Shown: positions 40,112 to 64,000 of the stretch, piece after piece
Layout: every line of letters starts with the position of its first letter
Position numbering within the stretch: position 1 is the first letter of the stretch
The notes under the pieces: model-generated
Databases searched by the model: none
The model's input: the letters and a program-made list of their open reading frames with translations, nothing else
Told to the model about the DNA's origin: nothing
Source: Cupriavidus respiraculi
Lineage (GTDB): Bacteria; Pseudomonadota; Gammaproteobacteria; Burkholderiales; Burkholderiaceae
DNA length: 64,000 nt
Direction of reading: 5' to 3'
NCBI RefSeq assembly: GCF_914271545.1
Contig: NZ_CAJZAH010000008.1
Span: forward strand, 62,001-126,000
Made by a program: the position numbers and the translations under genes

Positions 40112-40167
40112 GCTTTCTGGGCGCCGAGAAGTACATTTTCGGTACAGTCAGCTCCCAGAACAGGTAC

Positions 40168-41211
40168 ATGGCGACCATTGTCAAGACGCCTTCCGGCACG
40201 TGGAAGGCCGTCATCCGCAAGACCGGCTGGCCAACCACGGCCAAGACCTTCCGCACCAAGCGCGATGCCGAGGATTGGGCGCGAAGAACCGAGGACGAGA
40301 TGGTTCGCGGTGTGTATCTGTCTCGCGCACCGTCCGAGAAACTGACTGTATCCGCTGCGCTAAAGCGCTACCTGGCGGAAGTGTCGACGACCAAAAAGCC
40401 GACTACGCAGCGCAGTGAGCGCTTCACGTCCCAGCATCTCGAAGCCTTCTTTGGCAAGTACTCAATGGCGGCGGTCGGCGCCGAGCTGGTCGCCAAATAT
40501 CGTGACGAGCGACTAGCGGCTAGTAAGTCAAACAACACAGTCCGCATCGAGCTGGCGCTGCTGGGTCACCTCTTTCGCATCGCGATTCAGGAGTGGGGCA
40601 TCGGTTTGACCTTCAATCCGGTCGCCAACGTCCGTAAGCCGAGTCCTGGAACCGGTCGGAGTCGCCGCTTGAGCATTGCGCAGCAACAGCAGCTGCTCGA
40701 CGCGGTCAGGGCACACTCTAATCCAATGCTCGGATGGATAGTGACCCTCGCCATAGAGAGCGGCATGCGCTCGTCCGAGATCACTGGGCTCAGGCTCTCA
40801 CAGGTCGATGTGGAGCGACGTATCGTCAGACTACCCGATACAAAGAACGGGTCTATTCGCTTGGTACCTTTAACGCGGACGGCGACAGAGGCCTTAAGGG
40901 CGGCTATCGACAACCCCCTTCGACCTGCCGAAACGGATCTAGTCTTCTTTGGAGAGCCCGGGCGCGACGGAAAGCGGAAGCCCTACGTATTCCAGAAGCT
41001 ATGGGCGGCGGCCGTACAGAAGCTGGGGCTCGCGGACCTGCATTTCCACGATTTGCGACATGAGGCGGTGAGCCGCTTAGTGGAGGCTGGCATGAGCGAT
41101 CAAGAGGTCGCGGCCATCAGCGGTCATAAGTCGATGCAGATGCTGAAGCGCTACACCCATCTTCGGGCGGAGGATCTGGTCGGGAAGTTGGATAGACTGA
41201 TTGGCACGTAA
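40168..41211 (+). CDS. Tyrosine recombinase (site-specific integrase)
   Basis: Integrates and excises the island at tRNA-Thr. The 347 residues have an N-terminal arm-binding-like part (WKAVIRKTGWPTTAKTF), a SAM-like core-binding domain (about 60-155) and the catalytic domain with Arg201 (SGMRSSEITGL), His294 and Arg297 (HDLRHEA), His320 (SGHKS) and Tyr329 (LKRYTHL). All catalytic residues are present. ATG 40168 with AGGTAC before it is chosen. Shufflon-type or phage-type integrases of this kind commonly use tRNA 3' ends. Confidence 0.95.
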   Translation: MATIVKTPSGTWKAVIRKTGWPTTAKTFRTKRDAEDWARRTEDEMVRGVYLSRAPSEKLTVSAALKRYLAEVSTTKKPTTQRSERFTSQHLEAFFGKYSMAAVGAELVAKYRDERLAASKSNNTVRIELALLGHLFRIAIQEWGIGLTFNPVANVRKPSPGTGRSRRLSIAQQQQLLDAVRAHSNPMLGWIVTLAIESGMRSSEITGLRLSQVDVERRIVRLPDTKNGSIRLVPLTRTATEALRAAIDNPLRPAETDLVFFGEPGRDGKRKPYVFQKLWAAAVQKLGLADLHFHDLRHEAVSRLVEAGMSDQEVAAISGHKSMQMLKRYTHLRAEDLVGKLDRLIGT

Positions 41212-47400: not shown

Positions 47401-47659
47401 TGCCTTCCTTGTTCAGGGCCTGGGCCAGGCGGTCCATGAGGGTGCCCGTGGCCTTGTCACCGTTGCCCGCCACCAGCTTCTCCCACCTAGACGGCTGTGT
47501 GGCCTTAATCCACGCGACTAGGTCCTCTGGGTAGAGGGCGTGGTTCTGATCATAGCCGGAAGTCTCGCCCACCAGCCAGCCGCGCGCGGCGAGCTGCTGG
47601 ACGATGTAGGCCTCAAAGTACTTCTCGCGGTGAGCGGTGTCGGTAAAGGCGGGGTGCAT
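44414..47659 (-). CDS. hsdR: Type I restriction enzyme R subunit HsdR
   Basis: Motor and nuclease subunit that translocates and cuts unmodified DNA. The 1081 residues have the N-terminal PD-(D/E)XK nuclease (Asp144 in LAIDLVFF, Glu158-Val-Lys160 in TAEVK), then two RecA-like helicase domains with Walker A at about 320 (AGSGKTSTIAW) and DEAH at 433-436, SYFAFTATPKH and the late VANKFQTGFDQPKLCAMYLDKK motif. All key residues are present. It starts 9 bp after the hsdS stop and is the last gene of the minus-strand operon hsdM-hsdS-hsdR. Confidence 0.96.
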   Translation of the reverse strand: MHPAFTDTAHREKYFEAYIVQQLAARGWLVGETSGYDQNHALYPEDLVAWIKATQPSRWEKLVAGNGDKATGTLMDRLAQALNKEGTVHVLRRGIKLAGVGEISLSEGLPEDKRDPSAWERYGANRLRVVPQLKYRPGSQLAIDLVFFINGIPVATAEVKTDFTQFAGAAVEQYKNDRLPVDPTSRRVEPLLTFKRGAVVHFAMSDSDIRMATKLAGADTYFLPFNLGRDGHAGNPLRADGEYPVAYFWEQVCQRDNWLRIFHSFVYTEKKDAVDLAGNHHRKETLIFPRFHQWDAVTRMIADAKAKGPGQPYLCEHSAGSGKTSTIAWTAHDLIRLRTANGDSLFHSVIVVTDRTVLDKQLQDAVQQIDHQHDMIAAIGDKDTGRSKSAELAEALERQTPIIVVTIQTFPYAMEQILTNGKLADRNFAVIIDEAHTSQTGTAASKLQATLALRDANAMEGLTVEELLEKIQASRVRPKNVSYFAFTATPKHATMTLFGRPADPSQQASKDNLPISFHKYPMRQAIEEGFILDVLQGYLPYKTAFNLAEPSKDGKRVDSKAAKRALAKWLSLHATNVTQKVEFIVEHFAANVAPLLGGSAKAMIVTSSRAAAVRYKRAFDAYTQAHPQHNAFRALVAFSGSLTGKEVKHPSDDNLGDDHFAAQDDEQFTESAMNPRQYGTDLRKVFDRPEFRVMVVANKFQTGFDQPKLCAMYLDKKIANPVEIVQTLSRLNRIAPGKDTTFVVDFVNDPQVVLDAFAKYDAGARIQTVQDANVVYDLQSELEKAGIYTPAEVAAFTAVRFKSAAAYAAGEQAQHKELYAATSAPTQRFNDRLQNLRGEIQSAEAAFEAAKGQGNEHGMKAADARRNEAADALQGLLNFKSGLARFGTLYTYIAQTIEFGDASLEGFASFARLLSKRLEGIPPDQVDVSALLLTGFDIKPKELPDPGQGNEDDRILKPVGPGGDGQAALPVYLRQVIARLNSIFGEATPLTDKVAFVNHIADIAREDANTIAQIENNPREVAMSGNIKGTVQSAVVRAMTSHSDLAEHVMKNDQQAMAPLVALVYEMIKSGTKIDAAAVGI

Positions 47660-47668
47660 GGCTGGTCC

Positions 47669-48976
47669 TTATGCCGCGTCTCGGAGGTCAATTTTGCCGG
47701 TGACGGCTGCAGTGATGAGGGCGGTGCGGTGCTCGCGCAGCAATTCGATCGAGCGCTCGGTCTTGGCGATCAAGGTATCGATGCGAGCGGTAGCACGGTC
47801 TAGGTAGGCGACGATGGCGCGCTGCTCTGGAAGAGGAGGCATGGCGATCATCTGGGCCTTAAGCCATTCATCCTGAACGCGCTTCTGGCCAGCAGATCCT
47901 TCCATGTGGCCCTCGGCATAAGAACGGAACCCAGTCGCAGAGAATAGCCACCAGGAAAACTTGCCATCGGTACCTGGCGATGGCCGCAGAACGATGAGCT
48001 CCGTTGTGCCAAAGCCGATTCCACCGACCAGCCCTTCTACGCTGGCGCCTTTCCCGTTTTCGAAGCAAGGGGTGATCTTCGCAATGACGGTGTCTCCGTT
48101 CGCGAAATATGAGTAACCGGATTCAACCTCACCAATCGGCCGTACCCGCGTAAGGTCCAGCTCGCCGCGTTCGCTGATTGCCTCCATTGGCAAAAAGGAA
48201 ACTTCCTCGTCGCGGGAGCGCCTAGCGATCTCCCTCTTGGATGGATTGAACGTTAAGAAGCGGCGGGCAGCGCCAATGGTCCAGCTCGCCGGCACCTCCC
48301 CCAGCCACTCGACCCCGCTATCCTTCATCGGCACGCCCGCATCCAGCCCCTTGGTCACGGCGTGCGTGATCAGGGCCTGGCGCTTCTCGCGCAGCAGCTC
48401 GATAAAGCGGGTCTTCTTGGCGACAAGGCCGTCGATGCGGGCGGTGGCGTAGTCGAGGTAGGAGGCGATCAACTCCATTTCGTCATCTGGTGGGACGACA
48501 ACAGGAAGGCGCTTGAGATCCGCGAACTTCATGGATTGCCGAATGCCACCGCCGATCCCATAGAACACCTTGGTTGTGTCGTACGAGCGCATCAGGTACT
48601 CAAAGAAGCGCGAATTGGCATGAGGGCGGACGGTGACGTAAGCGGAGGTGATGATGCCGCGCTCCTGGGCTCGGGCGGATCGCAAGCTAGTCTGGTCGTT
48701 TTGAAGATCGGTAAGCCGAAAGACGATGTCGTTGGCCTCGATGACGTTGTAGCCCTCGAAGCTGGCTGGAGTCAGGCCATTCAGGCGATCAATGTCCTTT
48801 CGGACCAAGCGGCCGTAGCTCAACGACAGCAGATTGCGCTCCTTCATGCCGGCATTCGGATGATCGACCTCTTCCGCAAACGAGTAGAAAGGCTGCGTCG
48901 ACCAGTGAGCGGGAATTTCTCCTACCCACTCAATGCCGGAGTACTTCATAGGATGATTACTTTGCGCTGGTGTCAT
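47669..48976 (-). CDS. hsdS: Type I restriction enzyme specificity subunit HsdS
   Basis: Determines the bipartite DNA target of the type I system. The 435 residues show the usual two-fold plan: SGIEWVGEIPAHW opens the first half and SGVEWLGEVPASW the second. Each target-recognition domain is followed by a conserved helical spacer (YLDYATARIDGLVAKK and YLDRATARIDTLIAKT). The recognition sequence cannot be predicted from here. The start overlaps the hsdM stop by 4 nt. Confidence 0.95.
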   Translation of the reverse strand: MTPAQSNHPMKYSGIEWVGEIPAHWSTQPFYSFAEEVDHPNAGMKERNLLSLSYGRLVRKDIDRLNGLTPASFEGYNVIEANDIVFRLTDLQNDQTSLRSARAQERGIITSAYVTVRPHANSRFFEYLMRSYDTTKVFYGIGGGIRQSMKFADLKRLPVVVPPDDEMELIASYLDYATARIDGLVAKKTRFIELLREKRQALITHAVTKGLDAGVPMKDSGVEWLGEVPASWTIGAARRFLTFNPSKREIARRSRDEEVSFLPMEAISERGELDLTRVRPIGEVESGYSYFANGDTVIAKITPCFENGKGASVEGLVGGIGFGTTELIVLRPSPGTDGKFSWWLFSATGFRSYAEGHMEGSAGQKRVQDEWLKAQMIAMPPLPEQRAIVAYLDRATARIDTLIAKTERSIELLREHRTALITAAVTGKIDLRDAA

Positions 48977-51024
48977 TTCGCCACCTCATCCAATAGCGCT
49001 GCAATTTCCGCTTCTACCGCCTTGAGCTCAGCATCGATCTCGTGGAGGTCGCGTGGCGGCACATACTTGTAGAAGTAGCGGTTGAAATTGATCTCGTAGC
49101 CGACCTTGCCGACCTTGCCATCGCGTTCGTCGGTGTAATTGGTATCCACCCAGGCATCCGGAACATGAGGAAGCACTTCGGCCGCCATGTAGGCGTCGAT
49201 AGCCTGGCCAAGCGGCACGCTCTCGAAGTCCTCCAGCTCCTTGTCCGCCATTTGCTTGCCATCAACTTCCACGATAGGCGCGTCCGGGTCGCGCACGCAG
49301 AGTGCATTTTCCAGAGCGGTTGCCAGCGGCTTGGCGACCTTGCCCAGGCCGGCCTTCTTGGCGGCGGCTGGGAGAGAGTCCAGCCAGGTATAGGGGTAAC
49401 TTTCGCCCAAGTGTTGGCGCAACAGGGCCAGCCAACCCGCCTGCTCCGCTTCATCCAGCTTTGCAAAGGCCTTGGCGGACTGCAAGGCGGTCAAGGTGTC
49501 TTCGGTGACGTGGACAGCGAGGCGCAGCGGGCGCTGGACCTTGATGCGGCGGTAGCCGAAATCGCGGTAGTCCACGATGCGGATGTTCTCGCCTGTCTCG
49601 AAGTCGGCGTAGAGGCGGGCAATGACTTGGATCTGATCATCGCTGATGAAGCGGCGTTTGTTGCCCTCGGACTTGCGCATCGGGCTGTGGAGGCCAGTGG
49701 CGTCGATCAGTTGGACCTTGCCCTTGCGCGCATCCGGCTTCTTGTTGGTCAGCAGCCAAATATAGGTGCCGATACCCGTGCGGAAAAAGATATCGGTGGG
49801 CAGGGCGACGATGGCCTCGATGTAGTCGTTCTCGAGTAGCCAGCGGCGGATCTCGCTCTCACCCTGGCCGGCGTTGCCGGTGAACAGCGGCGATCCGGAC
49901 AGAATAATGGCCGCGCGCCCGCCGCCTTTGGCGGGGCGTTCAAGCTTGTCGACTAGGTGTTGGACGAAGAGCATCGAGCCATCCGACACTCGCGGCGTGC
50001 CGGCGCCGAAACGGCCCTCGAAGCCCTTCTCCTTGGCCTCGCGCTCGACAAACGCCTGATCCTTCTCCCACTTCTTGCCGAAAGGTGGATTGGAGAGGCA
50101 ATAGTGAAAGTGCTTGCCGGAGAAGGCGTCCTGGGAAAGCGTGGACTTGGGACCAGCGATATTGGCTGACAGATCGCGGGAGGGCTCGGTTTCCAGGCGG
50201 CGCAGCAGCATATTCGCCAGTGCAACGGCGTGGGTCTCCGGTTCCAACTCTTGGCCGAAAGGAATCAGCACAGGCGGGGCCTTACCTTGGGCACTGAACC
50301 CGTCGACGTGGTTCATCGCGTCGGTCAGAAAGCCTCCGGTACCACATGTTGGGTCGTAGAGGGTACGGATCAGGCCAGGGTTGTTGCGGAATAGCTCGTC
50401 GTCCGGATCCAGAAGCAGGGTGGTGGCTAGGTGGACGACGTCGCGCGGGGTCATAAAGTCTTCGGCCGCCTCGTTGACCTCGGCACCGAAGCGGCGGATC
50501 AGGTGTTCGTAGATGTTGGACATCACCCGGTCCGGAACAACATCCGGATGCAGGTCGGTGTTGGCGAAGTTCTGGCAGATTTTGAACAGGATGTCCGCGC
50601 GGGCTAAGCGGGCGATCGTGTCCGAAAAGTTGAACTGCTCGAAGATGACGCGGGCGTTGTCCGAGAAGCCAGCGACATAGGCCTCAAGGTTGGCCTTGGT
50701 TTTGGTAGCGCCCAAGGTGTTCAGCGCGTACAGCGACGTGTTGTAGAACGGCAGCTTTGCCGTCTGGCGCAGGATGAGGTCGATATCGAGGCCCTTGTCC
50801 TTGAACTTCTCGTGGGCTTGGCGGACCGCGTCGCGAGTGGGCTCGAGTACGCACTCCAGGCGGCGAAGCAGCGTGAACGGAAGGATGATCTTGCCAAAAT
50901 CAATGTGCTTAAAGTCGCCCCACAAGTCCTCAGCGTTCTTCCAGATGAATGCGGACAGAGTGGTGTCGGAGGCCTTCGTGGTCTCCATGGAGGGGGCTGA
51001 GTTGATAGCTTGCTGATCGTTCAT
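48973..51024 (-). CDS. hsdM: Type I restriction-modification methyltransferase HsdM
   Basis: N6-adenine methyltransferase subunit. The 683 residues have the helical HsdM N-domain (AFIWKNAEDLWGDFKHIDFG), the AdoMet motif DPTCGTGGF (about 224-232), the catalytic NPPF at 312-315 and a C-terminal coil for HsdS binding (EIDAELKAVEAEIAALLDE). The start is ATG 51024 (MNDQQAINSAP), set by AAAAAGGCGAC upstream; a longer frame exists but has no family sequence. It is the first gene of the hsd operon. Confidence 0.95.
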   Translation of the reverse strand: MNDQQAINSAPSMETTKASDTTLSAFIWKNAEDLWGDFKHIDFGKIILPFTLLRRLECVLEPTRDAVRQAHEKFKDKGLDIDLILRQTAKLPFYNTSLYALNTLGATKTKANLEAYVAGFSDNARVIFEQFNFSDTIARLARADILFKICQNFANTDLHPDVVPDRVMSNIYEHLIRRFGAEVNEAAEDFMTPRDVVHLATTLLLDPDDELFRNNPGLIRTLYDPTCGTGGFLTDAMNHVDGFSAQGKAPPVLIPFGQELEPETHAVALANMLLRRLETEPSRDLSANIAGPKSTLSQDAFSGKHFHYCLSNPPFGKKWEKDQAFVEREAKEKGFEGRFGAGTPRVSDGSMLFVQHLVDKLERPAKGGGRAAIILSGSPLFTGNAGQGESEIRRWLLENDYIEAIVALPTDIFFRTGIGTYIWLLTNKKPDARKGKVQLIDATGLHSPMRKSEGNKRRFISDDQIQVIARLYADFETGENIRIVDYRDFGYRRIKVQRPLRLAVHVTEDTLTALQSAKAFAKLDEAEQAGWLALLRQHLGESYPYTWLDSLPAAAKKAGLGKVAKPLATALENALCVRDPDAPIVEVDGKQMADKELEDFESVPLGQAIDAYMAAEVLPHVPDAWVDTNYTDERDGKVGKVGYEINFNRYFYKYVPPRDLHEIDAELKAVEAEIAALLDEVAK

Positions 51025-51405
51025 GTCGCCTTTTTGATGCGCGGAATTAGTCTTCGCTGAGCGGGATTGGCCAAGTTGGTTCACCTTCTGCAACGGCGTA
51101 TCCCGATTGAGCAAGGAACTTGCTCAAGGTGCGCCGTTCGGGTAGTGCATTTTAATTCACTTGCAACCTTATTGATGACTCCGCGAAAAGGCGGAATTTT
51201 AATGCCTGAGAGACTTACATAGTGGGCCGCAACATAAACACGCACGACGCCAAGCGTTCGGTGAGTCAAGCGCTTGATAGCAGCCGCTCGGTCGCAAGTC
51301 TTCTTTGTCCGGTAAGGGTCGGTAGTCGCCTCTGACGCAGGCAAGTCTCCCGCGCAGACGATCCGAGGACCGAGACCGACTAGAAGCGGTCGGCCGACAC
51401 GGTCC
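51025..51405. other. Upstream region of the hsd operon
   Basis: 381 bases that should hold the hsdM promoter on minus. I find no convincing -35/-10 pair by eye and no gene that I can support. Confidence 0.5.
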
Positions 51406-51801: not shown

Positions 51802-52470
51802 CTAATCGAACGGGTGTACTTCAACCGTCCGCTGCGGGCCGGGTATCGCGTTGAGAAGATCCTGAACGGGCTCAACCCACTTCTGACCGCCGACAATGGC
51901 CGAGACAATGTAGGTTGGCGCGATGCTTTCCAGCACCTGAACCTCGGCTTCCGGATCCGTGGGCCAGCTTGCGGCCATGCCACCTCTCTCTGCGTCGCTT
52001 CCTGCAAACATCTCACCAAATGCCCAAGGACCGCCGCGAAACCCGCGGCAATCCTTGATCTCTTTGGTGGCGGCATTCGTCCAGCAAAACAGGCAGTCGC
52101 GTTCCCACAGGATCGCCGATGACAGAACCAGGACCACCCAGTCCGAGTGTCCACTCGCGTGACGCTTCAGTCTGAAAAGCGCCTCGCTCACCCGGGACAC
52201 AGAAACAGAGATCGCGCCGTACTTTTCGTCAAGCCGATCTTCCGCGCTTACGTAAGCGGCGTGCTGATCAGCCACTAGTTGCAACCTGGATTTGAGTCCG
52301 TGGTTGACGATCCCAGGAAGGTTTGTAAGCTGCGTGAAGTGACCGAGATACTGCACTCCGCGCTCGAGCGCGATGGCTCTAATTCTGTTCCGGTAGTTTG
52401 TTGCCACAAACGCATTCCTTGCTTTCTTAAAGCCGAAGATGGGCGCGTGGGAACACCCTGCCGTAGGCAT
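51802..52470 (-). CDS. DarT-family DNA ADP-ribosyltransferase toxin
   Basis: DarT enzymes (DUF4433 family) attach ADP-ribose to bases in single-stranded DNA and serve as toxins or anti-phage effectors. The 222-residue protein has the family opening YLGHFTQLTNLPGIVNHGL (about 41-59), the AISVSVSR segment (86-93), WVVLVLSSAIL and FCWTNAATKE (about 111-137), and the C-terminal TDPEAEVQVLESI motif, where Glu176 corresponds to the family's catalytic Glu region. About 35 residues ahead of the fold are extra, so the start may be further in. No macrodomain DarG antitoxin is next to it. It sits between the hsd operon and the right att site, on the same strand as hsd. Confidence 0.75.
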   Translation of the reverse strand: MPTAGCSHAPIFGFKKARNAFVATNYRNRIRAIALERGVQYLGHFTQLTNLPGIVNHGLKSRLQLVADQHAAYVSAEDRLDEKYGAISVSVSRVSEALFRLKRHASGHSDWVVLVLSSAILWERDCLFCWTNAATKEIKDCRGFRGGPWAFGEMFAGSDAERGGMAASWPTDPEAEVQVLESIAPTYIVSAIVGGQKWVEPVQDLLNAIPGPQRTVEVHPFD

Positions 52471-53326
<856 letters not shown>

Positions 53327-53372
53327 ATTTGTAATCATCAGGTGGCGGGTTCGAGTCCTGCAGCCGGCACCA
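53327..53372 (+). repeat. attR: partial tRNA-Thr copy, right island boundary
   Basis: Identical over 46 bp to the 3' part of tRNA-Thr (40025-40070). It lacks the 5' half, so it is not a functional tRNA; it marks the right end of the island. Confidence 0.92.
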
Positions 53373-53405
53373 GATTCCCTTCCAACGCTTCCGAGCGTTG
53401 CCTAG

Positions 53406-53439
53406 AAAACCCCGCGCAGCCTTGCTCCGCGGGGTTTTT
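53406..53439 (+). terminator. Terminator after attR
   Basis: An 11-bp stem (53406-53416 with 53428-53438) and a T-run. Being 34 bp past the tRNA 3' end copy, it is probably the original terminator of the tRNA-Thr gene, displaced by the island. Confidence 0.8.
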
Positions 53440-53667
53440 GTTTGCAACGTAGCCAAGCCATGTCGCATCGCACAAAGTCACCAAGCGCAGAAGTGGGTGA
53501 TTTCCCAAGTTGTAACTTATCGTAACTTGTGATGGAATCGAAAGATCGCTCTTCTGTCGGCCCTTGAGCAGCAACGGTCAGGGGCGGAATAGCGCCGGTA
53601 GGGGACAGTGTTCTGTCGAATAGCGGTAACCCGTCCGCCGGGACGTCATAGATTATGTAGAAGACAG
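53440..53667 (+). promoter_or_regulatory. Upstream region of the ankyrin-sigma operon
   Basis: 228 bases ahead of the sigma gene. They contain a CAAGTT/AACTTG inverted pair (53506-53511, 53524-53529) with an inner repeated GTAACTT, which could be an operator. No clear sigma-70 promoter is seen by eye. Confidence 0.35.
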
Positions 53668-56181
53668 ATGAGCACTTGGGAGCCGGCAAAGCTGCATCCA
53701 ATGCTGAAGCTTGCGCTGAAAAGCGGCGTGACAGCCGCCGTGGCGTTCCAGCTTCGCAGGTCCGATTGCGCTAACGCGCGTGACGCAAATGGTGACACGC
53801 CGCTAATGATCGCCGCAGCCAACGGCCATCTGGATGTCTGCAAGCTGCTTGTCGAAAACGGTGCGGATCCGTTAGCCACCGACCAGATGGGCGCGACCGC
53901 CTACTCCAAAGCGCTAGCTTCCAAGAAATTGGACGTGGTCGAGTTACTCGCATCCATCGTGCAACAGTCGACGCCCGTGCCGGCACCCATGATCGTTCGC
54001 GGGGCGGAAAACCTATCCTGCGTTTCCGATTTCCCAAAAATTCCCTCGGCCGGGTATGTCGATATCCGTCCCAGTCTCGCTACGGAAGCCATCGCTCAGA
54101 GCATTGACGAGGGGGCAACGCAAGTTGGTTCGGCCACTTCCAACTTGATTGCTGATGAAGGGGAATTGTTCGGATGGGCCCCCGAGGAAATCTCTGCGAT
54201 CCCTTCAAACGACGCTGTTTGTCGAGCGGTAGCGGAAGAGGAGCAGAAAGCGATCAGCCGGCATAAGCCGCAAGATAGCGATGCGGATTGGACGGACGTG
54301 TCCTTTGACTTGCCCGAAGGGCAGGGTGTCTTCGTCCCCCAATCGGGCGATCTGTCACTCATCGCTGACCTCATCCATGAAGGTTTGGCCGTCGGGAGGT
54401 TGTCTTCTTCTTCAATCGCTGCTGCGTGCGATTCGCAATTTGGAGATGCAGGGAAAGATGTTGTTCCCCTGCTTATCGCCATCCTGCTTGATCTGCCCAT
54501 CATCATTGACGCGGAAGACCTTTCGCCGAGACACGGAACTCCTGAGCCAAATGCTTTTGATGCAGACCTCGCCGCGGCCGCGCTTGCACGCCTGCAGGAG
54601 AGACTCAATAGCACCGCGGACCGCGTCGGTGCGTTGTACTTCCGTGATATCGGTGCGGTCGATCTGCTAACGCGCCAAGAGGAAGTTGCGACAGCTAAAC
54701 GCATCGAAGCGGGGCTCAGGGACACAGTCCTTGCCTTATGTGATTGTCCATCGATCATTGCAGATTTACTAGCCGCAGCCGAACGCGTCGCCAATGACGA
54801 AGCTCGCATCGATGAGCTCATTGATGGCCTGATCGATCTGGATGTCGGCGATGAGATATCTATTAGCGATGAGAATTACTTTCCGTCGGGCGTAACGCGC
54901 GCAATTGACGACGAACGTGTCGATGAAGACGACGACTCCGCCGATGACTCTTCGTCGCAAGAACTCGTGGTGCTCAAGCAGAACGCGTTGGAAATATTTC
55001 GTGCAATCGCGCCGCACTTCGAAGCAATGGAACAGGCGCTGGAGAACGATGGATATGGATCCGCTCCATACGACCGCGCGCGCGACGCCATTCGCACGGA
55101 GTTGGGCAAGATTCGCATTGCGAATCGCGCCGTGGCGCAACTGTGCGACACGTTGCATGGATGTGTCGTCCGGTGCAGCGAGCTGGAAAGCGAGATCCGT
55201 CGCATTGCAGTGGATAAATGCGGCATCCCAGCCGCCGTCTTCGAGATGCATTTTGTCGGGAACGAGATCGGTCTCGACTGGTTTTCGAAGGCCAGTGCTG
55301 CGGGCGTACCGGACCAGCAACTGCTCAAGCGCCAAGCCCCTGCTTTGCTGGAACTACGGCAACAACTTGTTGCTTTGCAGTCCAAGGTGAGACTGCCACT
55401 AAGGGAGCTCAAGAACGTTCACGCCAGGGTGCAGGCGAGCGAATCGCGCACGCTACGAGCAAAGCATGAGATGACAAACGCCAACTTGCGGCTTGTCGTC
55501 TCGATTGCAAAGAAGTATTCGACCTCCGGCCTCGATTTCCTTGATGTTGTTCAGGAGGGGAATATTGGTTTGATGAAAGCCGTGGACAAGTTCGAGTATC
55601 GACGCGGCTTCAAGTTCTCTACTTACGCCACCTGGTGGATCCGGCAAGCAATCACGCGCGCAATTTCGGATCAGGCTCGGACGATTCGCGTTCCAGTGCA
55701 CATGATGGAGTCGATCAACCGCTTGAATCGCATCTCCCGACAGATCGAGCAGCGTACGGGTTCCTTGCCCAATGTGACGACTCTTGCCAGAGAGCTGGAT
55801 GCTTCCGAGGATAAGGTCCAGCAGTACCTCCGGATTGCTGGGGGGGAGCCTACGTCTCTGGACATTAGTTCGGATGGCGCAATTGAGGAGAGCATTGGCG
55901 ATGGCTTGATGGACCCTTCTCCCACTCCCGAACAATCCCTGTTCAAAGCCCAGATGGCTCAAGCGATCGACTACGCCCTCTCCAACCTGCCGCCGCGATC
56001 GGCGAAAGTCTTGAAGCTGCGATTCGGACTCGAGACGAAGACCGATTTCACCTTGGAGGAGGTTGGGAGATTGTTCGATGTCACGCGCGAGCGCATTCGG
56101 CAGATAGAGAGCAAGGCGCTACGCACATTGAAGCATCCCAATCGGTCCACCGCCTTAGCCGCTTTTCTGGACGCAGATTGA
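53668..56181 (+). CDS. RpoD-like sigma factor with N-terminal ankyrin repeats
   Basis: An 837-residue sigma-70 family protein. In order: two ankyrin repeats (about 38-96: [21 protein letters not shown], then [20 protein letters not shown]), a long variable linker, a part resembling RpoD region 1.1 (about 229-285), region 1.2 ([20 protein letters not shown], about 324-343), a large non-conserved region as in RpoD (to about 580), regions 2.1-2.4 (about 600-680, including [20 protein letters not shown]), region 3 and region 4.2 ([20 protein letters not shown], about 795-814). The promoter-reading parts are nearly those of housekeeping RpoD. ATG 53668 is the start; region upstream is not protein-like. 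It leads the MORC-Z1-nuclease-AIPR operon 40 bp ahead of the ATPase. Confidence 0.88.
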
Positions 56182-56221
56182 GTGCGGCGTCTTGATAGAT
56201 AGAAAGAGCCAACACTAAAAG

Positions 56222-57727
56222 ATGGAAACATCGACGAAGTCTGCCCCGCCTCCGTTCTCCCGCCATGCTCCACCGAAGGCGGCGGCCATGATTGAAGCGC
56301 TCCGCGGGTTAGGTTACAGCACGGCAACTGCTTTGGCGGATATCGTCGATAACAGCATTGCCGCCGATGCGACTCACGTCGCAATCCGGTTCGAATGGGC
56401 CGGCGGCGAAAGTCGGGTTTCCATTCAGGACGACGGTAGCGGTATGAATGCCGAGGCGATCGACAAGGCCATGCGCCTAGGAGAGCGCAATCCGCTTGAG
56501 GAGCGTGCGGCGGCTGATCTCGGCCGATTCGGGCTTGGCCTGAAAACCGCATCGTTCTCCCAATGCCGACGGCTGACCGTCGCATCTTGTGGACAGGATG
56601 GTTTTCACTGTCTGCGGTGGGATCTCGATGTGTTGGCAAAATCCACTGGCGACGGATGGTACTTGCTTGAGGGGCCATCACCAGGATCGGAGCCTTGGTT
56701 AGAGCCTGTCAAAGAAGCACGGCACGGCACACTCGTGCTATGGGAAAGTCTCGATCGAATCGTGACGGACGGCTTCAAAGAACAGGACTTCCTCGAACTC
56801 ATCGATCGCGTAGAGCTGCACCTGTCGATGGTTTTCCATCGCTACCTCGAAGGCACGCGTCCATCTCTGAAAATCACTATCAACGGCAAGCGACTGGTGC
56901 CTTGGGACCCGTTCCTCGCTGGCCATCCTGCCAAAGCATGGGAATCGCCCCTTTCGCGCTCACCACACGGGAACGGCGTCGAGGCGAAGTGCCATGTGCT
57001 GCCGCACAAGGACAGGCTGAGTCCCAAGGAATATGAAGATGCGCAGGGACCCGATGGCTGGACGTCGCAGCAGGGCTTCTACGTCTATCGGAATCGGCGC
57101 CTGTTGGTGGCCGGGAGCTGGCTCGGACTTGGCCAGGGGCGCTCATGGACGAAGGATGAAGCGCATCGACTTGCCCGTATCCGGCTGGACATTCCGAACT
57201 CTGCTGATGCAGATTGGAAGATCGATATCCGCAAGTCAACGGCTCGCCCACCCGTGGCGCTGCGGGCTTGGTTGATCCAACTCGCCGAGAACACACGCTC
57301 GCGTGCGCGTCGGGCCTTCGTGCATCGGGGTATGGGGCCTCGTACCGCAGACAACAAGCCTGTGGAACAAGCCTGGCGCGCTGAACACTTCGCCGGCGGA
57401 ATGCGATATCGGATCGATCTCGACCACGCGGCTGTGCGCGGAGTCCTCGACGAAGCAGGAGGCTTGCTGCCCCAAGTGAAAGCGATGCTGAGGGTCATCG
57501 AGGAGACCATCCCCGTTCAGCGTATCTGGCTAGATACGGCCGAGAACCGGGAAAGTCCGCGGACCGGGTTTGGCGGCTCGCCTCCAGAAGAAGTTGCAGA
57601 CGTTTTGCGAGTGCTATTCCGCACCATGGTTCAGCACAAGGGGATGTCTGTCGAGATGGCGCGCGAGCGGCTCCTGCATACAGATCCCTTCTGTAACTAC
57701 CCGCAACTGATATCGACCCTGTCGTAG
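56222..57727 (+). CDS. MORC/MutL-like GHKL ATPase
   Basis: A 501-residue ATPase with a Hsp90/MutL/MORC-type GHKL domain. Motif I is ALADIVDNSIAA (about 37-48), motif II DDGSGM (70-75) and motif III GRFGLGLKTAS (101-111). In MutL and most MORC proteins the first residue of E..(D/E)N is Glu; here it is Asp (D40-I-V-D-N). A second S5-fold part follows with FYVYRNRRLLVAGSW and DIPNSADADWKIDIRKSTARPP, typical of prokaryotic MORC-like proteins next to Z1 genes. It is expected to clamp DNA in an ATP-dependent way. It begins 40 bp after the sigma gene and ends 21 bp before the Z1 gene. Confidence 0.88.
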   Translation: METSTKSAPPPFSRHAPPKAAAMIEALRGLGYSTATALADIVDNSIAADATHVAIRFEWAGGESRVSIQDDGSGMNAEAIDKAMRLGERNPLEERAAADLGRFGLGLKTASFSQCRRLTVASCGQDGFHCLRWDLDVLAKSTGDGWYLLEGPSPGSEPWLEPVKEARHGTLVLWESLDRIVTDGFKEQDFLELIDRVELHLSMVFHRYLEGTRPSLKITINGKRLVPWDPFLAGHPAKAWESPLSRSPHGNGVEAKCHVLPHKDRLSPKEYEDAQGPDGWTSQQGFYVYRNRRLLVAGSWLGLGQGRSWTKDEAHRLARIRLDIPNSADADWKIDIRKSTARPPVALRAWLIQLAENTRSRARRAFVHRGMGPRTADNKPVEQAWRAEHFAGGMRYRIDLDHAAVRGVLDEAGGLLPQVKAMLRVIEETIPVQRIWLDTAENRESPRTGFGGSPPEEVADVLRVLFRTMVQHKGMSVEMARERLLHTDPFCNYPQLISTLS

Positions 57728-57748
57728 CGACGGGTTGGAAGGCATCCA

Positions 57749-60574
57749 ATGCTCAACGAAGCGAACAGCCTGAATGTACTGAAAGTCGTCCAGATGCTCT
57801 TGCAGGAAGAGCAGGACAAGTCCTGCATCACGCCGGCAGTGATCGAGCAGAAGATTTCGCTCGCCTTGATGCTCAACCGCGGCTGGGTGGAGGGTCTGGA
57901 TCGCGAATGGGTCGTGGAAGAGCTGATTCGCCGGTTCAGTGTCTGGATTGGCAAGGATACGTCGCTCGTCGATAACGTTGGTCACAAGCCATGGCTGACT
58001 CCCGAGCGGAAGAATAACTGGCGCTATTGGCAACGCTATCGTGAATGGCAGGAGGCGAAGCTGCCTTGGTCGGCCATTGACGGCCTTGATGCTTCGACCG
58101 ACGATGTACTGGGTTCGCTCGAGGATCCTCTTCGTCCCGGAAGCTGGGACCGTCGTGGCTTGGTAGTCGGGCACGTGCAGTCGGGGAAGACCGGAAACTA
58201 CACGGGTCTGATCAGCAAGGCTGCGGATGCAGGCTACAAGATCATCGTGGTCCTCGCCGGCATGCATAACAACCTGCGGTCGCAAACGCAGATGCGACTC
58301 GACGAAGGCTTCCTTGGTTATGCCACCAGCGCCTTCCAGGATGGAGCACTTAACGTCATCGGAGTGGGGGTGATTGACGGCGACCCTGCAATTCGGCCGA
58401 ACTACGCGACCAATCGATCGGATAACGGGGATTTCAGCGCAAAGGTTGCCAAGAATTTGGGCATCACACCCGAGCAGCGCCCCTGGCTCTTCGTCATCAA
58501 GAAGAACAAGTCGGTCTTGCAGCGACTGCTGCATTGGATCACCAGTCATGTTGCGAATGCATCGGATCCAGATACGGGGCGCCGCATCGTTACGAACCTT
58601 CCCCTGCTCGTCATCGACGATGAGGCGGATCACGCGTCTGTGGATACGGGCGAGCAGCTGATTGGCGAGGATGGCGTCCCTGATCCCGAGCATCAGCCTA
58701 CAGCAATCAACAGCCTGATACGCAGGATCCTGCATGCCTTCACAAGAAAGGCGTACGTGGGCTACACGGCCACTCCTTTTGCCAACATCTTCATTCACGA
58801 GCGTGGTGCTACGCATGACGAGGGCCGGGACCTGTTTCCGTCGAGCTTCATTGTGAATCTCGGAGCCCCGTCCAACTACATTGGTCCGACGAAGGTATTC
58901 GGGCTTGCAGGGCCAGATGGGCGGGAGGGCGGCTTGCCGCTGGTGCGAGTGGTTTCCGATCACTGCTCCGAGGATGGCAAGTCAGGTTGGATGCCGGTTT
59001 CTCACAAGGCAACCTATCGTCCGCATGACCCCTCAACCGAGTCGGGCTTGCCCGAGTCTCTCGCCGAGGCGATCGATGCGTTCATCCTCACCTGTGCGAT
59101 TCGCCAACTGAGAGGTCAAGGAGGGGAGCACTCCTCCATGCTCGTACACGTGACGAGATTCAATGCCGTGCAACAGGTGGTCCATCAATGCATCGACAGC
59201 TATGTGCGCCACATGCGCCAGCGCGTGTTGCGACAGATTGGGAGTGAACCCATCCTGGCGCGGTTGAAAGACCTCTGGCGGAACGACTTCGTGCCGACCA
59301 CAGAGGCAATGGCTGCATCGTCTCTGTCAGCCACCGGTACGAGCGAGACCTGGGAACACATCGTAGAAGCTCTGCCCGTTGTCCTGGAAGCTATCAGTGT
59401 TCGGATGATCAATGGCACGGCCAAGGATGCGCTCGATTACGCAGATAGTGCGACCGGGCTGAAAGTGATTGCCGTGGGCGGGGACAAGCTTGCGCGCGGG
59501 CTTACTCTCGAAGGCCTTTGCACCAGCTATTTCCTCCGGGCGTCTCGCATGTATGACACGCTGATGCAGATGGGGCGCTGGTTCGGGTACCGCCCTGGCT
59601 ACCTGGATGTGTGCCGGCTCTATACGACTAGTGAGCTGGTGGAGTGGTTCGAACACATCGCAGATGCTGCGGAGGAGTTGAGGGAAGAGTTCGACGAGAT
59701 GGTGGCTAGCGGTGGAAAGCCGATTGATTTCGGCCTAAAGGTCAAGTCCCATCCGGTGCTCATGGTGACCTCTCGCTTGAAAATGCGCTCGGCCAAATCG
59801 CTTTACCTATCGTTTAGCGGGAGCGTCGTGGAAACCGTGACTCTCTTCCGAGATCCCGTAAAGCATAAAAGCAATCTGGACGCGTTCCGTCGTCTATCCG
59901 CGACGCTAGGCCCGTCGCGAGGGAAGCCCTCTCAGAAGCGAAATGGCACGACGGAGTCTTGGGCTGCGGCCATGTGGAAAGACGTGTCCTGGGAGGCTGT
60001 GGTCGCCTTCCTGCAGGACTACGAGACTCATCCTGAAGCCCTTAAAGTAAACTCGCGAGTGATTGCAGAGTTCGTCGCCGCGATGGCAAGAGCGGGTGAG
60101 TTGACGTCTTGGACGGTTGCAGTGATCGGAGGTAGTGTGAACGAGCGAGTGGAGGAGGTTGGAGGACAACCTGTCCCGCGAATGGTGCGTACGGCGAAAC
60201 CAAAGCACGACGATCGCTATTCAATCGGCCGCCTGCTGTCACCGAGGGACGAAGGTCTCGATATCGAAGAGACCGCTTGGCTTTCGGCTTTGAATGCTAC
60301 TCGCAAAAAGTGGCACAAGGATCCCGGAAGAAACTCCAGCACCGAAGCACCGACTGTGCCAAGCGGCATATCGCTGCGAGCTGCGCGTCGTCCTGAAACG
60401 GCACTATTGCTACTTTATCTGCTAGACCCGGAAGAATCGAAGGTCGATTCATTGAAGGGCAAGGGGCCGGTGATTGCGTTCGGCATCAGCTTCCCTGGCA
60501 GCGAATCTGGCACCAAGGTGGAATACAAGGTGAACAATGTCCTCTGGGAGCAGCAGTATGGCGCTTCAGAGTAA
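57749..60574 (+). CDS. Z1-domain superfamily II helicase-like ATPase
   Basis: A 941-residue Z1 protein, expected to move along or remodel DNA. Helicase-like motifs are Walker A VVGHVQSGKTGNY (about 139-151), Walker B LLVIDDEADHASVD (about 286-299), motif III GYTATPFANIF, then GGDKLARGLTLEGL and the arginine-finger block DTLMQMGRWFGYRPGYLD. All key residues are present. A GGTTGGAAGGCATCC site precedes ATG 57749. It overlaps the next gene by 17 nt. Z1 proteins are known partners of MORC-like ATPases, C5 methylases and Vsr or PD-(D/E)XK nucleases in restriction-like clusters. Confidence 0.93.
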   Translation: MLNEANSLNVLKVVQMLLQEEQDKSCITPAVIEQKISLALMLNRGWVEGLDREWVVEELIRRFSVWIGKDTSLVDNVGHKPWLTPERKNNWRYWQRYREWQEAKLPWSAIDGLDASTDDVLGSLEDPLRPGSWDRRGLVVGHVQSGKTGNYTGLISKAADAGYKIIVVLAGMHNNLRSQTQMRLDEGFLGYATSAFQDGALNVIGVGVIDGDPAIRPNYATNRSDNGDFSAKVAKNLGITPEQRPWLFVIKKNKSVLQRLLHWITSHVANASDPDTGRRIVTNLPLLVIDDEADHASVDTGEQLIGEDGVPDPEHQPTAINSLIRRILHAFTRKAYVGYTATPFANIFIHERGATHDEGRDLFPSSFIVNLGAPSNYIGPTKVFGLAGPDGREGGLPLVRVVSDHCSEDGKSGWMPVSHKATYRPHDPSTESGLPESLAEAIDAFILTCAIRQLRGQGGEHSSMLVHVTRFNAVQQVVHQCIDSYVRHMRQRVLRQIGSEPILARLKDLWRNDFVPTTEAMAASSLSATGTSETWEHIVEALPVVLEAISVRMINGTAKDALDYADSATGLKVIAVGGDKLARGLTLEGLCTSYFLRASRMYDTLMQMGRWFGYRPGYLDVCRLYTTSELVEWFEHIADAAEELREEFDEMVASGGKPIDFGLKVKSHPVLMVTSRLKMRSAKSLYLSFSGSVVETVTLFRDPVKHKSNLDAFRRLSATLGPSRGKPSQKRNGTTESWAAAMWKDVSWEAVVAFLQDYETHPEALKVNSRVIAEFVAAMARAGELTSWTVAVIGGSVNERVEEVGGQPVPRMVRTAKPKHDDRYSIGRLLSPRDEGLDIEETAWLSALNATRKKWHKDPGRNSSTEAPTVPSGISLRAARRPETALLLLYLLDPEESKVDSLKGKGPVIAFGISFPGSESGTKVEYKVNNVLWEQQYGASE

Positions 60575-61565
60575 GTCTGAGATTGCTCTTGCCTGGCGCG
60601 CGTTGTCCGATACGGGGCAGCAATCCGGCTGGCGGTGCATCCCCATTTCGACGGCCGGCACCGTCGGCGCCCTTGCGGGCCGACACTTTCCAGATAACGC
60701 GGAGGCGATCCTCGTTGGATTTCGTACGCTGAGCCAAGCAAACAGTGCAGCGTTTCCCAAGGGCAATGGGTTTCGTGTGGAGCGCGCAGAGCTAGAAGCT
60801 GATGGAAAGACCTGGGTCGCGTTGATTCGCGAAGCGTCGGCCTCGCTCGATATGTTCACGTTGATGGCGGAGGACGTATCGTCCGTGCTCGCCTCTCGCG
60901 GAGCGGCTCACGATGGTGCTCTCTTTCAAGCTTTCTTGGGCCGCATTCGCGCGTGGCAATCGTTCATGAAGAACGGTGATCTGGCGCTAGGTCCGGAAGC
61001 GGAACTTGGGTTGGCAGGTGAACTCACTTGCCTCAATCAACTGTTGGCGAACGGTGTTCCAGCGCAAATTGCTTTGAACGCTTGGGTGGGTCCCTTGGAC
61101 GGGCTTCAAGACTTCGAACTTGGCTCGGGTGCAATCGAGGTGAAGAGCACGCTAGCAATCGCCGGTTTCCCGGCGAAGATCCTCTCGCTTGAGCAACTCG
61201 ACGACTCTGTTCGGCAACCGCTTTACGTGTGCGCATGTCGATTCCGGCCATGCGAAGAAGGTATGACATTGCCGATGCTGGTGAAGACGCTTGAAGACGC
61301 ACTGGCCGAGGCCGGTGCATCTGTGGCGGATCTCCGTGTCGCGCTGCTTCATGCAGGATACCTTGATTCGCAGGCCGACCGATATGTACGCAAGCTCGCC
61401 AACGTATCGTGCGATTTCCGACTGGTGACCGACGGGTTTCCTCGGCTCACGCCTGGTACGGTGCCCCCAGGCGTACGCGCCGCTCGTTACGACATTGACC
61501 TGGACCAAGTGGTAGGGGACACGACTCCGATCACCCAGATGCTTTCAATCCTTATGGGGCGGTGA
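60558..61565 (+). CDS. PD-(D/E)XK motif protein (DUF4420 type)
   Basis: A 335-residue putative nuclease. The active-site pattern is visible: Glu155 in GLAGELTCL, Asp185 in GLQDFELG and Glu194-Val-Lys196 in AIEVKST, i.e. E...D...ExK. The family is the PD-(D/E)XK motif protein regularly encoded between Z1 and AIPR genes. ATG 60558 overlaps the Z1 end by 17 nt; the AIPR gene begins 1 nt after the stop. It likely supplies the DNA-cutting activity of the cassette. Confidence 0.88.
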   Translation: MALQSKSEIALAWRALSDTGQQSGWRCIPISTAGTVGALAGRHFPDNAEAILVGFRTLSQANSAAFPKGNGFRVERAELEADGKTWVALIREASASLDMFTLMAEDVSSVLASRGAAHDGALFQAFLGRIRAWQSFMKNGDLALGPEAELGLAGELTCLNQLLANGVPAQIALNAWVGPLDGLQDFELGSGAIEVKSTLAIAGFPAKILSLEQLDDSVRQPLYVCACRFRPCEEGMTLPMLVKTLEDALAEAGASVADLRVALLHAGYLDSQADRYVRKLANVSCDFRLVTDGFPRLTPGTVPPGVRAARYDIDLDQVVGDTTPITQMLSILMGR

Positions 61566-61566
61566 G

Positions 61567-63351
61567 ATGGAACTGCTGGAATTCCTTCATCAGACACAAG
61601 AACAAATTCGCGCAGAGATTGCCGACAGGACCGGTCCGGGGATCGACATGCCTTTTGGCGAGCTGGTCTTCACGGAAGTGGTGGCGAAACACATGGCGGA
61701 TTCAGGTATGACGTGCGGAGACCCGGTGGCATGCCATTACACAGCGAAGGTCGGTAACTCCCCAGTCCGTTTGAGCGGGTATGCGGTTTCTGATGATGGC
61801 GATCAGCTCGATCTTTTCGTCAACCTTTATCAGGGCGCTACTGAGCTCGCGACCATCTCGGATCCGGAAGTCGCGAAGGCAGCGGAGCATTGCTCGCGCT
61901 TCCTCTCCGCATGCGTGGAAGGAAAGCTCGGAACGAAGATGGACGAGTCCAATGACGCATATCCGATGGTCCTCACCATCGAGAAAGTCTATAGCGATCT
62001 CGATCAGATAAGAATCTATGTGCTAACCGACGCGCAAGTGAAAACTCGCGTGTTCCGTCCACGAGAAATTGCCGGAAAGACCGTCAAGCTCGAAGTGATG
62101 GATATCGTTCGCCTCTACAACCATTGGCAAGAAGGCAAGCCTCGCGACGAGCTTGTTGTGAACTTCGAGGAAGTGTGTGGTCAAGCGCTGCCTTGCGTCT
62201 GGGTGCCAGGGGAGAACGGGGAGTACGACTACGCAATGACCGTGGTCCCTGGCGAGGCCCTGCGTTTTATCTACGAGAAATTTGGCACGCGGGTACTGGA
62301 AGCCAACGTGCGATCTTTTCTGAGCCCGAGCAAGGAAGTCAACAAAGGAATCAGTAACACCCTGCGAGAATCCCCCGGACGTTTCATGGCTTTCAACAAC
62401 GGAATCGTCATCGTTGCCGACGAAGCCCGTATCGGCCGTGTTGAAGGCGGTGCAGGTATATCGTGGCTGAAGGGCATGCAGATCGTGAATGGTGGACAGA
62501 CGACGGCCTCCATGTTCTTCACGAAAAAGAAGTATCCATCGACCGATCTCGGGCCGGTTCGTGTCCCCGCGAAAATCATTGTCTTGGGTGAACTTGACCA
62601 GTCGCGTGAGGAAGAACTGATCGCCGATATATCCAAGTACGCAAATTCACAGAACAAAGTGAACGCGTCGGATCTTTCGGCCAACAAGCCCTTCCACGTC
62701 GCAATCGAGAAGCTCGCATTGACGACATATTGCCCCGATGGATACGGACGCTGGTTCTACGAGCGCGCCGCGGGCAGTTACAAGGTCATGCTTGAGCGAG
62801 AGGGGAAAACAGCGGCAGGCATCAAGCGCCTGCAGGAATCAATGCCACCTGCGCGCAAGATCACGAAAACCGATCTTGCAAAGTATGTTTGTGCATGGAA
62901 GCGCCGTCCAGATCTTGTAAGCTTGGGGGGACAAAAGAACTTCAAGGCATTCATGGAAGAGATGGTGGACGCTCCCGGCGACGGAGAAGAGTCAATTCCG
63001 GATGCGGCCGAGTACAAGAAGATGATCGCCTGTGCCATTGTCTTCAAGGCTGCGGAGAAGGCGATACGGGTGAGCAAGGAGTTTCCGGCCTTCCAAGCGA
63101 ACATCACAGCGTATACCGTTGCTATGCTGTCTGTGCTGAGAGGCGAAGCGATTGACCTTGGCATCATCTGGCAAAAGCAAGATATCAGCCACGATCTGTC
63201 ACGCGAGATCTTGGCGTTGGCGACGGAAGTGAGTGCGTGTCTGCATCAGACTTCCGGCGGCCGAATGATCTCCGAGTGGGCTAAAAGGGCAGAGTGCTGG
63301 CATAGCGTTTCAACTGCCACGTTTGGTACACGTTTGACTTCCACTTACTAG
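61567..63351 (+). CDS. AIPR-family protein (abortive infection phage resistance)
   Basis: A 594-residue protein with the AIPR domain: RFMAFNNGIVIVAD, GMQIVNGGQTTASMFF (GGQTT at about 309-313), ADISKYANSQNKVNASDLSA and PFHVAIEKLALTT. AIPR proteins were named after a lactococcal abortive-infection factor; the mechanism is not established. The end (EWAKRAECWHSVSTATFGTR, then four residues) comes soon after the motif that in relatives, as far as I recall, is followed by further sequence, so a C-terminal truncation is possible. It is the last gene of the operon, 1 nt after the nuclease gene, and is convergent with the methyltransferase 112 bp away. Confidence 0.88.
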   Translation: MELLEFLHQTQEQIRAEIADRTGPGIDMPFGELVFTEVVAKHMADSGMTCGDPVACHYTAKVGNSPVRLSGYAVSDDGDQLDLFVNLYQGATELATISDPEVAKAAEHCSRFLSACVEGKLGTKMDESNDAYPMVLTIEKVYSDLDQIRIYVLTDAQVKTRVFRPREIAGKTVKLEVMDIVRLYNHWQEGKPRDELVVNFEEVCGQALPCVWVPGENGEYDYAMTVVPGEALRFIYEKFGTRVLEANVRSFLSPSKEVNKGISNTLRESPGRFMAFNNGIVIVADEARIGRVEGGAGISWLKGMQIVNGGQTTASMFFTKKKYPSTDLGPVRVPAKIIVLGELDQSREEELIADISKYANSQNKVNASDLSANKPFHVAIEKLALTTYCPDGYGRWFYERAAGSYKVMLEREGKTAAGIKRLQESMPPARKITKTDLAKYVCAWKRRPDLVSLGGQKNFKAFMEEMVDAPGDGEESIPDAAEYKKMIACAIVFKAAEKAIRVSKEFPAFQANITAYTVAMLSVLRGEAIDLGIIWQKQDISHDLSREILALATEVSACLHQTSGGRMISEWAKRAECWHSVSTATFGTRLTSTY

Positions 63352-63463
63352 CCGTGGTGGGCTGGCAATGCTGTCGCGCAATCCCGATGCCGATCCCAGT
63401 CTGAAAACCCGGGCCCCCGCCGAAGCTCTCTTGGCGGGCTCATCTCTATAGCATGGATCTCTG

Positions 63464-64000
63464 CTATTCGCCAACTCGAGCGAGTAATGTCAGTTCCGAG
63501 TCGAGCTCCATTGCAGCTATCACCTTCGCAATTTTGTACGCCAGCAGTGGAGGGACGGCATTGCCAACTTGGTGGAACTGTTCGGTGCGGTTCCCCTGAA
63601 AAAAATAGTTGTCGGGGAACGTCTGTAATCGTGCGGCCTCCCGTACCGTAAGACTTCGGCACTGGCTGGGATCAGGATGGATGAAGTAGTGCCCATCCTT
63701 CGCGATATGACTGGTGATCGTGGTGGACGGACGGTCGTACGCTTGCACCCTGAACCGGTCGGCAAACTTGCCAGACTCCCAGTTGCGATGCTCGGGGCGA
63801 AGTCCGCTCAGTAACGAGAAGTCTTCGTGCCCCTTGGGCGAACGTTCGAAGGCTTTAGCGAACGCAGCCGAAAAGGCATATCGCCTGAGGTCGCTGCTCA
63901 TATGGCCCCTCGTTTCTGAATTTAGCCAGACGCGAAGGTTGTCGTCGTGGTACCACTTCTGCAACGGTGTGCAGGGTGTGAAATCGAACTTCGTTCGCGG
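63464..64000 (-). CDS. C5-cytosine DNA methyltransferase, C-terminal part (cut by window edge)
   Basis: Open on minus from the window end to the stop at 63464; at least 178 residues, N-terminus outside. Motif IX/X region is clear: [39 protein letters not shown] and [15 protein letters not shown]. The N-terminal AdoMet and PC motifs are not visible. It is the expected modification partner of the Z1/MORC cassette, although transcribed in the opposite direction. A vsr-like gene may follow outside the window. Confidence 0.9.

Follow-up and report, generated by a model that had tools for sequence, protein, structure and literature searches.

The mza operon and its closest described relatives

The mzaABCDE operon has been described as a validated anti-phage system in which mzaA is a sigma factor (PMC9523054, which cites Gao 2020), and a hotspot for islands in Pseudomonas has been reported to include Mza in its systems (PMC12629846). 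The MORC-SFII restriction-modification neighbourhoods that have also been described consist of a MORC-type ATPase, a superfamily II (SFII) helicase, and a nuclease of the restriction endonuclease (RE) fold, often with a cytosine methylase and Vsr. AIPR appears there in a figure legend, and the word "sigma" occurs 0 times in the main text (Iyer, Abhiman and Aravind 2008, PMC2292703). The stretch of DNA analysed in this work, hereafter the window, comprises 64,000 nucleotides (nt) of Cupriavidus respiraculi (contig NZ_CAJZAH010000008.1, positions 62,001 to 126,000). The operon near its right end is, as judged from the encoded proteins, a divergent copy of MZA. It has all five genes in the same order with a sigma factor as mzaA. 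It differs from MZA in that a C5 methylase gene and vsr, which are outside the five-gene name, adjoin it and in that its MzaA keeps the ner part of the sigma factor. It also has the gene set of the MORC-type neighbourhoods, which is a MORC ATPase, an SFII helicase-like protein, an RE-fold nuclease, a cytosine methylase, and Vsr. What this work adds is that MZA is often accompanied by a DNA methylase and a repair nuclease and that, in a few relatives, the sigma half of MzaA is a copy of the host's main sigma factor.

The proteins of five adjacent genes on the same strand were scanned, and their top PADLOC matches are MzaA, MzaB, MzaC, MzaD, and MzaE in that order. The NCBIfam names agree with PADLOC for all five. 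The first gene, mzaA (53668..56181, + strand), encodes 837 amino acids with ankyrin repeats and a full-length sigma-70 factor of the RpoD type (PADLOC MzaA, 308.4 bits; Pfam Ank_2 and Sigma70 r1_2, ner, r2, r3, and r4). It is followed on the same strand by mzaB (56222..57727), which encodes a MORC/MutL-like GHKL ATPase (PADLOC MzaB, 694 bits), and by mzaC (57749..60574; PADLOC MzaC, 1408.5 bits). The last two genes are mzaD (60537..61565, + strand, with an alternative ATG start at 60558), for a PD-(D/E)XK protein with DUF4420 (PADLOC MzaD), and mzaE (61567..63351, + strand), for an AIPR protein (Pfam AIPR and AIPR_N; PADLOC MzaE). MzaA and MzaB score above the NCBIfam cut-offs (NF041931, 841.6 bits vs 800; NF041932, 859 vs 850). 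MzaC, MzaD, and MzaE score slightly below the curated cut-offs (NF041933, 1419.7 vs 1500; NF041934, 397.1 vs 420; NF041935, 998.6 vs 1050). Each of these three has one NCBIfam match only (E at most 5.6e-119), and the same family is its top match in PADLOC. By these matches they are divergent family members rather than members of another family, and strict cut-offs would not name them automatically.

The sequence-only reading of this DNA had placed an ankyrin-RpoD-like sigma factor, a GHKL/MORC ATPase, a Z1 protein, a PD-(D/E)XK protein, and an AIPR protein in one operon, and these parts are confirmed by PADLOC, NCBIfam, and Pfam. It had also stated that no described defence system has an ankyrin-RpoD protein as a core part. 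That statement is contradicted by MZA as defined in PADLOC and NCBIfam, where NF041931 bears the name "MZA anti-phage system associated sigma-70 family RNA polymerase sigma factor MzaA", and by PMC9523054, where mzaA is a sigma factor. A new defence system is likewise rejected, as PADLOC and NCBIfam give mzaA to mzaE and the same paper describes mzaABCDE. DISARM was also rejected. When the five Mza proteins and the methylase were scanned, none of the five matched the drmA, drmB, and drmC core models, and the methylase alone matched DrmMII.

The sigma gene, the methylase, and Vsr among relatives

Genome contigs were scanned with MzaC and the best 80 of 587 relatives were taken; the counts from this set favour near relatives of the window MzaC. 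A sigma gene is present on the same strand within 5 kb in 61 of the 66 loci that have at least 4.5 kb of DNA upstream of mzaC. The upstream DNA of the 14 other loci is too short to judge absence, and a sigma gene is visible in eight of them. The sigma-bearing loci come from several phyla, some of which are represented by metagenome-assembled genomes only.

A second search used a profile of 34 MzaA N-termini that covers the ankyrin repeats and the linker and excludes the sigma part. The profile was run on 250 genomes of the order. It has matches at E at most 1e-10 in 187 of the 250 genomes and full-length matches in only two of them (219 and 199 bits); the next match is partial, has 85 bits, and lies in the ankyrin region. 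Both full-length matches adjoin mza genes. The 199-bit match is that of the window's own genome, and the other is not independent of the 80 loci since L184 and L055 are apparently the same contig (both have 49488 bases and matches at the same positions). In a search of the class with the MzaA model, the window's own genome alone of 369 exceeds the MzaA cut-off. The runner-up (510 bits; the own RpoD scores 499) also has mzaB beside it. Searches with the entire sigma protein or with the MzaA model hit RpoD in every genome and are uninformative.

Within the genus, an MzaC-family match was found in seven of 60 genomes, none of them over the cut-off. Among these seven, G000, G060, and G068 are sigma-headed. 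Three genomes with a distant MzaC (35-38% identity) have no sigma gene near mzaB; one of these three, G010, has an RpoD-like gene end about 11 kb upstream. For one of the seven, no mzaB, mzaD, or mzaE was found.

The proposal of the sequence-only reading that the sigma gene is a dedicated component is thus supported by the 61 of 66 informative loci. In the genomes searched, homologues of the ankyrin-sigma protein are not mostly located away from Z1/MORC genes, since the full-length N-terminal matches (two of 250 genomes) are both at mza clusters. The Z1 cassettes among these loci do not consistently lack the sigma gene either, and chance neighbours are rejected on both counts.

The C5 cytosine methylase gene is on the - strand next to mzaE. 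Its C-terminal part occupies 63464..64000 (Pfam DNA_methylase), and the gene runs on to 65056, past the window. A Vsr endonuclease gene (about 65195-65647, + strand; Vsr Pfam match) lies after it, beyond the window end. The whole methylase gene and vsr were read from locus L017, which covers this DNA. The C5 methylase family is present in 33 of the 42 loci with full flanks and the Vsr nuclease in 38 of the 42; both adjoin the window operon. MZA looks restriction-modification-like because the methylase family and Vsr accompany most of these loci. As this company suggests, MZA should be read as a seven-gene restriction-modification system rather than one of five genes, and heterologous tests of MZA without the methylase may misjudge its toxicity or range.

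Relatives of MzaC are also found in mobile elements. They are present in 39 of 72,556 plasmid records, and 19 of these cover at least 80% of the protein. Two plasmids, Thalassospira marina pCSC3H3 (L186) and Neorhizobium petrolearium OS53 (L187), carry sigma-headed MZA near an annotated cytosine methylase and restriction endonuclease. Seven of 50,697 phage records (H31-H37) have MzaC relatives, all at less than 60% identity, and all seven are unannotated "Bacteriophage sp." from human faecal samples.

The anatomy of MzaA and putatively captured RpoD halves

The ankyrin repeat domain of the window MzaA spans residues 11-101 approximately (53698..53970, + strand; Pfam Ank_2 at residues 15-95) and consists of helices in the AlphaFold model, with values of the predicted local distance difference test (pLDDT) of 87-98 in ten-residue blocks. 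An MzaA-specific linker motif, D..WE.EEE ... P.D...DW.D...LPE, was identified in the N-terminal alignment at residues 165-217 approximately (54160..54318, + strand) and is partly of low confidence in the model. Two tryptophans and one proline of the linker (protein residues 170, 208, and 216) are invariant in all 34 aligned N-termini, and in this alignment the motif with its two invariant tryptophans marks the MzaA family. Residues 229-281 approximately (54352..54510, + strand) look like sigma region 1.1. The phmmer match to the RpoD chain 6wmr_Z starts at residue 229, and the model has a helix-strand-helix-strand order there. Pfam r1_1 has no match in the 59 MzaA proteins scanned, residues 229-281 of the window MzaA included. 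Region 1.2 and ner occupy 54634..55380 (+ strand; Pfam r1_2 at residues 323-350 and ner at residues 360-571, which is 54745-55380). Regions 2 to 4, for core binding and for -10 and -35 recognition, occupy 55477..56136 (+ strand; Pfam r2, r3, and r4). The model has a mean pLDDT of 80.2 and a predicted template modelling score of 0.57. Its confidence is good for the ankyrin part and for most of the sigma domains, and pLDDT drops under 50 at residues 104-173.

Sixty-seven of 72 sigma-bearing loci were kept as the MzaA set, and the partial or short frames of L028, L044, L047, L049, and L092 were dropped. The MzaA alignments A1, A2, and A3 consist of 59, 40, and 34 sequences. In 59 MzaA proteins scanned with Pfam at E at most 0.001, regions 2 and 4 were found in all 59, Ank_2 in 55, region 3 in 37, region 1.2 in 20, and ner in 13. 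The ner part, which the window MzaA has, was not detected in the other 46. The residues of the window MzaA that read the -35 element, R807, E808, R811, and Q812, are kept in all 67 MzaA; they are the equivalents of E. coli R584, E585, R588, and Q589. The equivalents of E. coli W434 and Q437 are kept in 65 of the 67, that of W433 is tryptophan in 48, and that of T440 is variable (threonine in 30). The 59-protein alignment has 10 invariant columns, eight of them within region 4.

Compared with RpoD (sigma-70 group 1), MzaA has regions 1.2, ner, 2, 3, and 4, the promoter-reading residues, and a stretch that may correspond to region 1.1. It differs from RpoD in its N-terminal ankyrin domain, its conserved linker, and its location in a horizontally acquired defence cassette. 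The window MzaA scores above the cut-off of the RpoD model NF004208 (569.6 bits vs 555) and below that of TIGR02393 (298.6 vs 354), and the MzaA model fits better (841.6). The best solved-structure matches of its sigma part are RpoD chains (phmmer). It has been reported that mzaA has unusually many variants, overall negative selection, and positive selection in the ner part (PMC10924106), and the latter would fit a surface under attack.

The mzaA gene of another genome of the genus (G060, locus L018; 13822-16443, - strand) joins an ankyrin half of the MzaA type to about 500 C-terminal residues that are RpoD-like. Its mzaB to mzaE are 66-82% identical to those of the window, two ankyrin blocks of its MzaA are 62% identical to those of the window, and the first 315 residues are 48.5% identical. 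From about residue 356 the G060 protein is RpoD-like. When it is compared with the RpoD of another member of the genus (L005), the 40-residue blocks from residue 376 are mostly 80-100% identical, and the block at 416 is 48% identical. Nucleotides 1066-2588 of the gene are 85.6-87.4% identical to nine rpoD genes of the genus and 86.7% identical to the rpoD of G060 itself, which sits elsewhere in the genome. The captured part is 88.4% identical to the RpoD of G060 over 509 codons with a ratio of nonsynonymous to synonymous substitution rates (dN/dS) of 0.150; in regions 2-4 the values are 96.5% and 0.068. Across comparisons, the dN/dS of regions 2-4 is 0.062-0.104 for mzaA against rpoD (nine comparisons) and 0.011-0.035 for rpoD against rpoD (eight pairs). 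For the whole captured part it is 0.142-0.187 and 0.039-0.112, respectively. The captured sigma half is under purifying selection, but this selection is looser than that on RpoD.

The best match per genome was taken as the host RpoD, which gave a sequence for 22 of 23 handles and so for 22 MZA carriers. The tree of MzaA cores and RpoD, whose bootstrap had not fully settled, exhibits MzaA cores inside the RpoD clade at three places. The core of G060 (L018) has support values of 99/94, those of the Gallionellaceae L056 and L061 group with the RpoDs of their hosts at 96/98, and that of Pusillimonas L032 groups with the RpoD of its own host at 92/88, a placement that is not starred. The label MzaA or RpoD needs four changes on the tree, and one change is sufficient in 0 of 200 bootstrap trees. 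A topology that unites every MzaA core in a single clade is rejected (p 0.0056). L105, which has an RpoD label in one tree, is an MzaA, as its core is identical to that of L060, both contigs have a length of 15874, and mzaB is beside it. The placements imply at least three putative captures of host RpoD (L018; L056/L061; L032), and we infer that the direction was from RpoD to mzaA. In the captured cases, the nearest relatives of the ankyrin half are largely those of MzaC, and those of the sigma core are not. Literature on how MzaA works or on RpoD capture by MzaA was not found in a search of titles and abstract starts, with most subscription journals outside the coverage.

Possible roles of the sigma half and the surroundings of the operon

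On our preferred reading, which is only slightly more probable than not, the locus would combine a DNA machine of the restriction type, complete with a methylase that marks self, with an added sigma factor that is functional. An active sigma factor rather than a mere decoy is favoured because the promoter-reading residues persist in cores that are only 34-45% identical to host RpoD. They are the same as in the housekeeping factor, and this is an argument against a promoter code private to MzaA. A further reading, which is bolder and unlikely, makes MzaA a two-faced adaptor. Its ankyrin half would be part of the Mza machine. The sigma half would be a replaceable copy of host RpoD, at times renewed by recombination with the host gene, and would keep the immune complex connected to the transcription apparatus that phages have to take over. 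If this is true, MZA would be restriction-like and, through a captured housekeeping sigma factor, would sense RNA polymerase and its promoter state or be directed by them; we know of no other restriction-like system of this kind.

Several observations weigh against the preferred reading. The Mza machine can work without the sigma factor because five of the 66 informative loci lack mzaA. These five are one pseudomonad clade and have a C5 methylase in the sigma slot at the operon head. The methylase itself is not constant, as no methylase match attains 150 bits in nine of the 42 full-flank loci, with weaker or partial matches in three of these, and no methylase match was found at the G060 locus. 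The looseness of selection on the captured half is a further point, and so is the absence of a promoter signal. Sigma-70-like promoters upstream of the 67 mzaA genes are not in excess (mean best score 7.49 vs 7.39 in shuffled sequences), matches of at least 10 of 12 positions occur in one of 67 (the shuffled sequences give an expectation of 1.35), and no promoter was found when 53300-56300 was scanned. With control for MzaC, the MzaA core shows no correlation with host RpoD over the 22 hosts (partial Mantel r 0.047, p 0.28). In the set of 67 loci, the core and the N-terminus track MzaC equally well (0.758 and 0.763). The RpoD of the own host ranks first of 22 for four carriers (L018, L032, L056, and L078), with a mean rank of 6.6 vs 11.5 expected. 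RpoD capture is therefore something that happened several times and is not the rule. The nearest MzaA core to that of the window is that of G060, and the window sigma half may or may not share the capture of G060 because one clade of the two is not rejected (approximately unbiased test, p 0.149).

The sequence-only reading had proposed infection-responsive or host-independent transcription of the defence genes by the sigma factor. On this model, which we consider rather unlikely, MzaA would be a private sigma factor for the mza operon that acts in infected cells whose housekeeping sigma factor has been usurped or silenced by the phage. It fits the position of mzaA at the operon head, the kept promoter-reading residues, and the cores of 15 of the 22 carriers, which are only 34-57% identical to host RpoD and might be missed by anti-RpoD phage proteins. 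It agrees poorly with promoter-reading residues that are those of RpoD with no private code visible, with the lack of promoter excess, with the clade that lacks mzaA, and with the G060 core, which is 96.7% identical to host RpoD in the 22-host comparison and is probably sensitive to whatever inhibits RpoD. Integrated decoys occur in plant NLR proteins, and the sigma half might in the same manner mimic RpoD, so that phage proteins that attack sigma or RNA polymerase bind MzaA and trigger MzaBCDE. This guard function, which we regard as doubtful, would fit the three or more captures implied by the tree (L018; L056/L061; L032), the ankyrin half that tracks the cassette in those cases, the weaker constraint on the captured half than on RpoD, and the positive selection in ner (PMC10924106). 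However, a decoy does not need the DNA-reading residues, which are invariant even in cores 34-45% identical to RpoD; host matching is not general, and ner was not detected in most of the MzaA scanned (46 of 59).

MzaA may also set only the basal level of the operon and be lost or replaced without cost, which we consider quite unlikely. The C5 methylase that replaces mzaA at the operon head in the five loci, and also in a distant plasmid relative, speaks for such a regulator, but the sigma gene is kept in 61 of 66 loci across several phyla (some as metagenome-assembled genomes only), and dN/dS is far below 1 in the captured core. It is extremely improbable that mzaA is a housekeeping sigma paralogue that adjoins a restriction cassette by chance. 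Its sigma half is indeed RpoD-like and passes NF004208, but this explanation is already largely contradicted by the conserved adjacency and by the lack of full-length N-terminal matches away from mza clusters in 250 genomes. The interest of the locus is the slot that alternates between a sigma factor and a methylase, together with the captured RpoD halves. The window and its relatives offer a way into the question of what a sigma factor is for in a defence cassette. This question becomes directly testable with the clade in which a methylase occupies the sigma slot and with the chimera whose sigma half is nearly a copy of host RpoD.

The operon lies just outside the right end of a genomic island that is flanked by a perfect 46-nt repeat of the 3' end of tRNA-Thr (40025-40070 and 53327..53372). 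The second copy, attR-like and on the + strand, is about 300 nt left of mzaA, and no third copy was found up to position 70000. The island carries a phage-type integrase (40096-41211), the type I subunits HsdR, HsdS, and HsdM (44414-51114), and a DarT-like ADP-ribosyltransferase (51802-52470). A short simple repeat at 52630-52790 approximately, near the right end of the island, gives Gly-Asp or Ala-Thr runs in overlapping frames. The guanine-cytosine content of the MZA block is 0.56-0.58, compared with 0.66 in the flanks.

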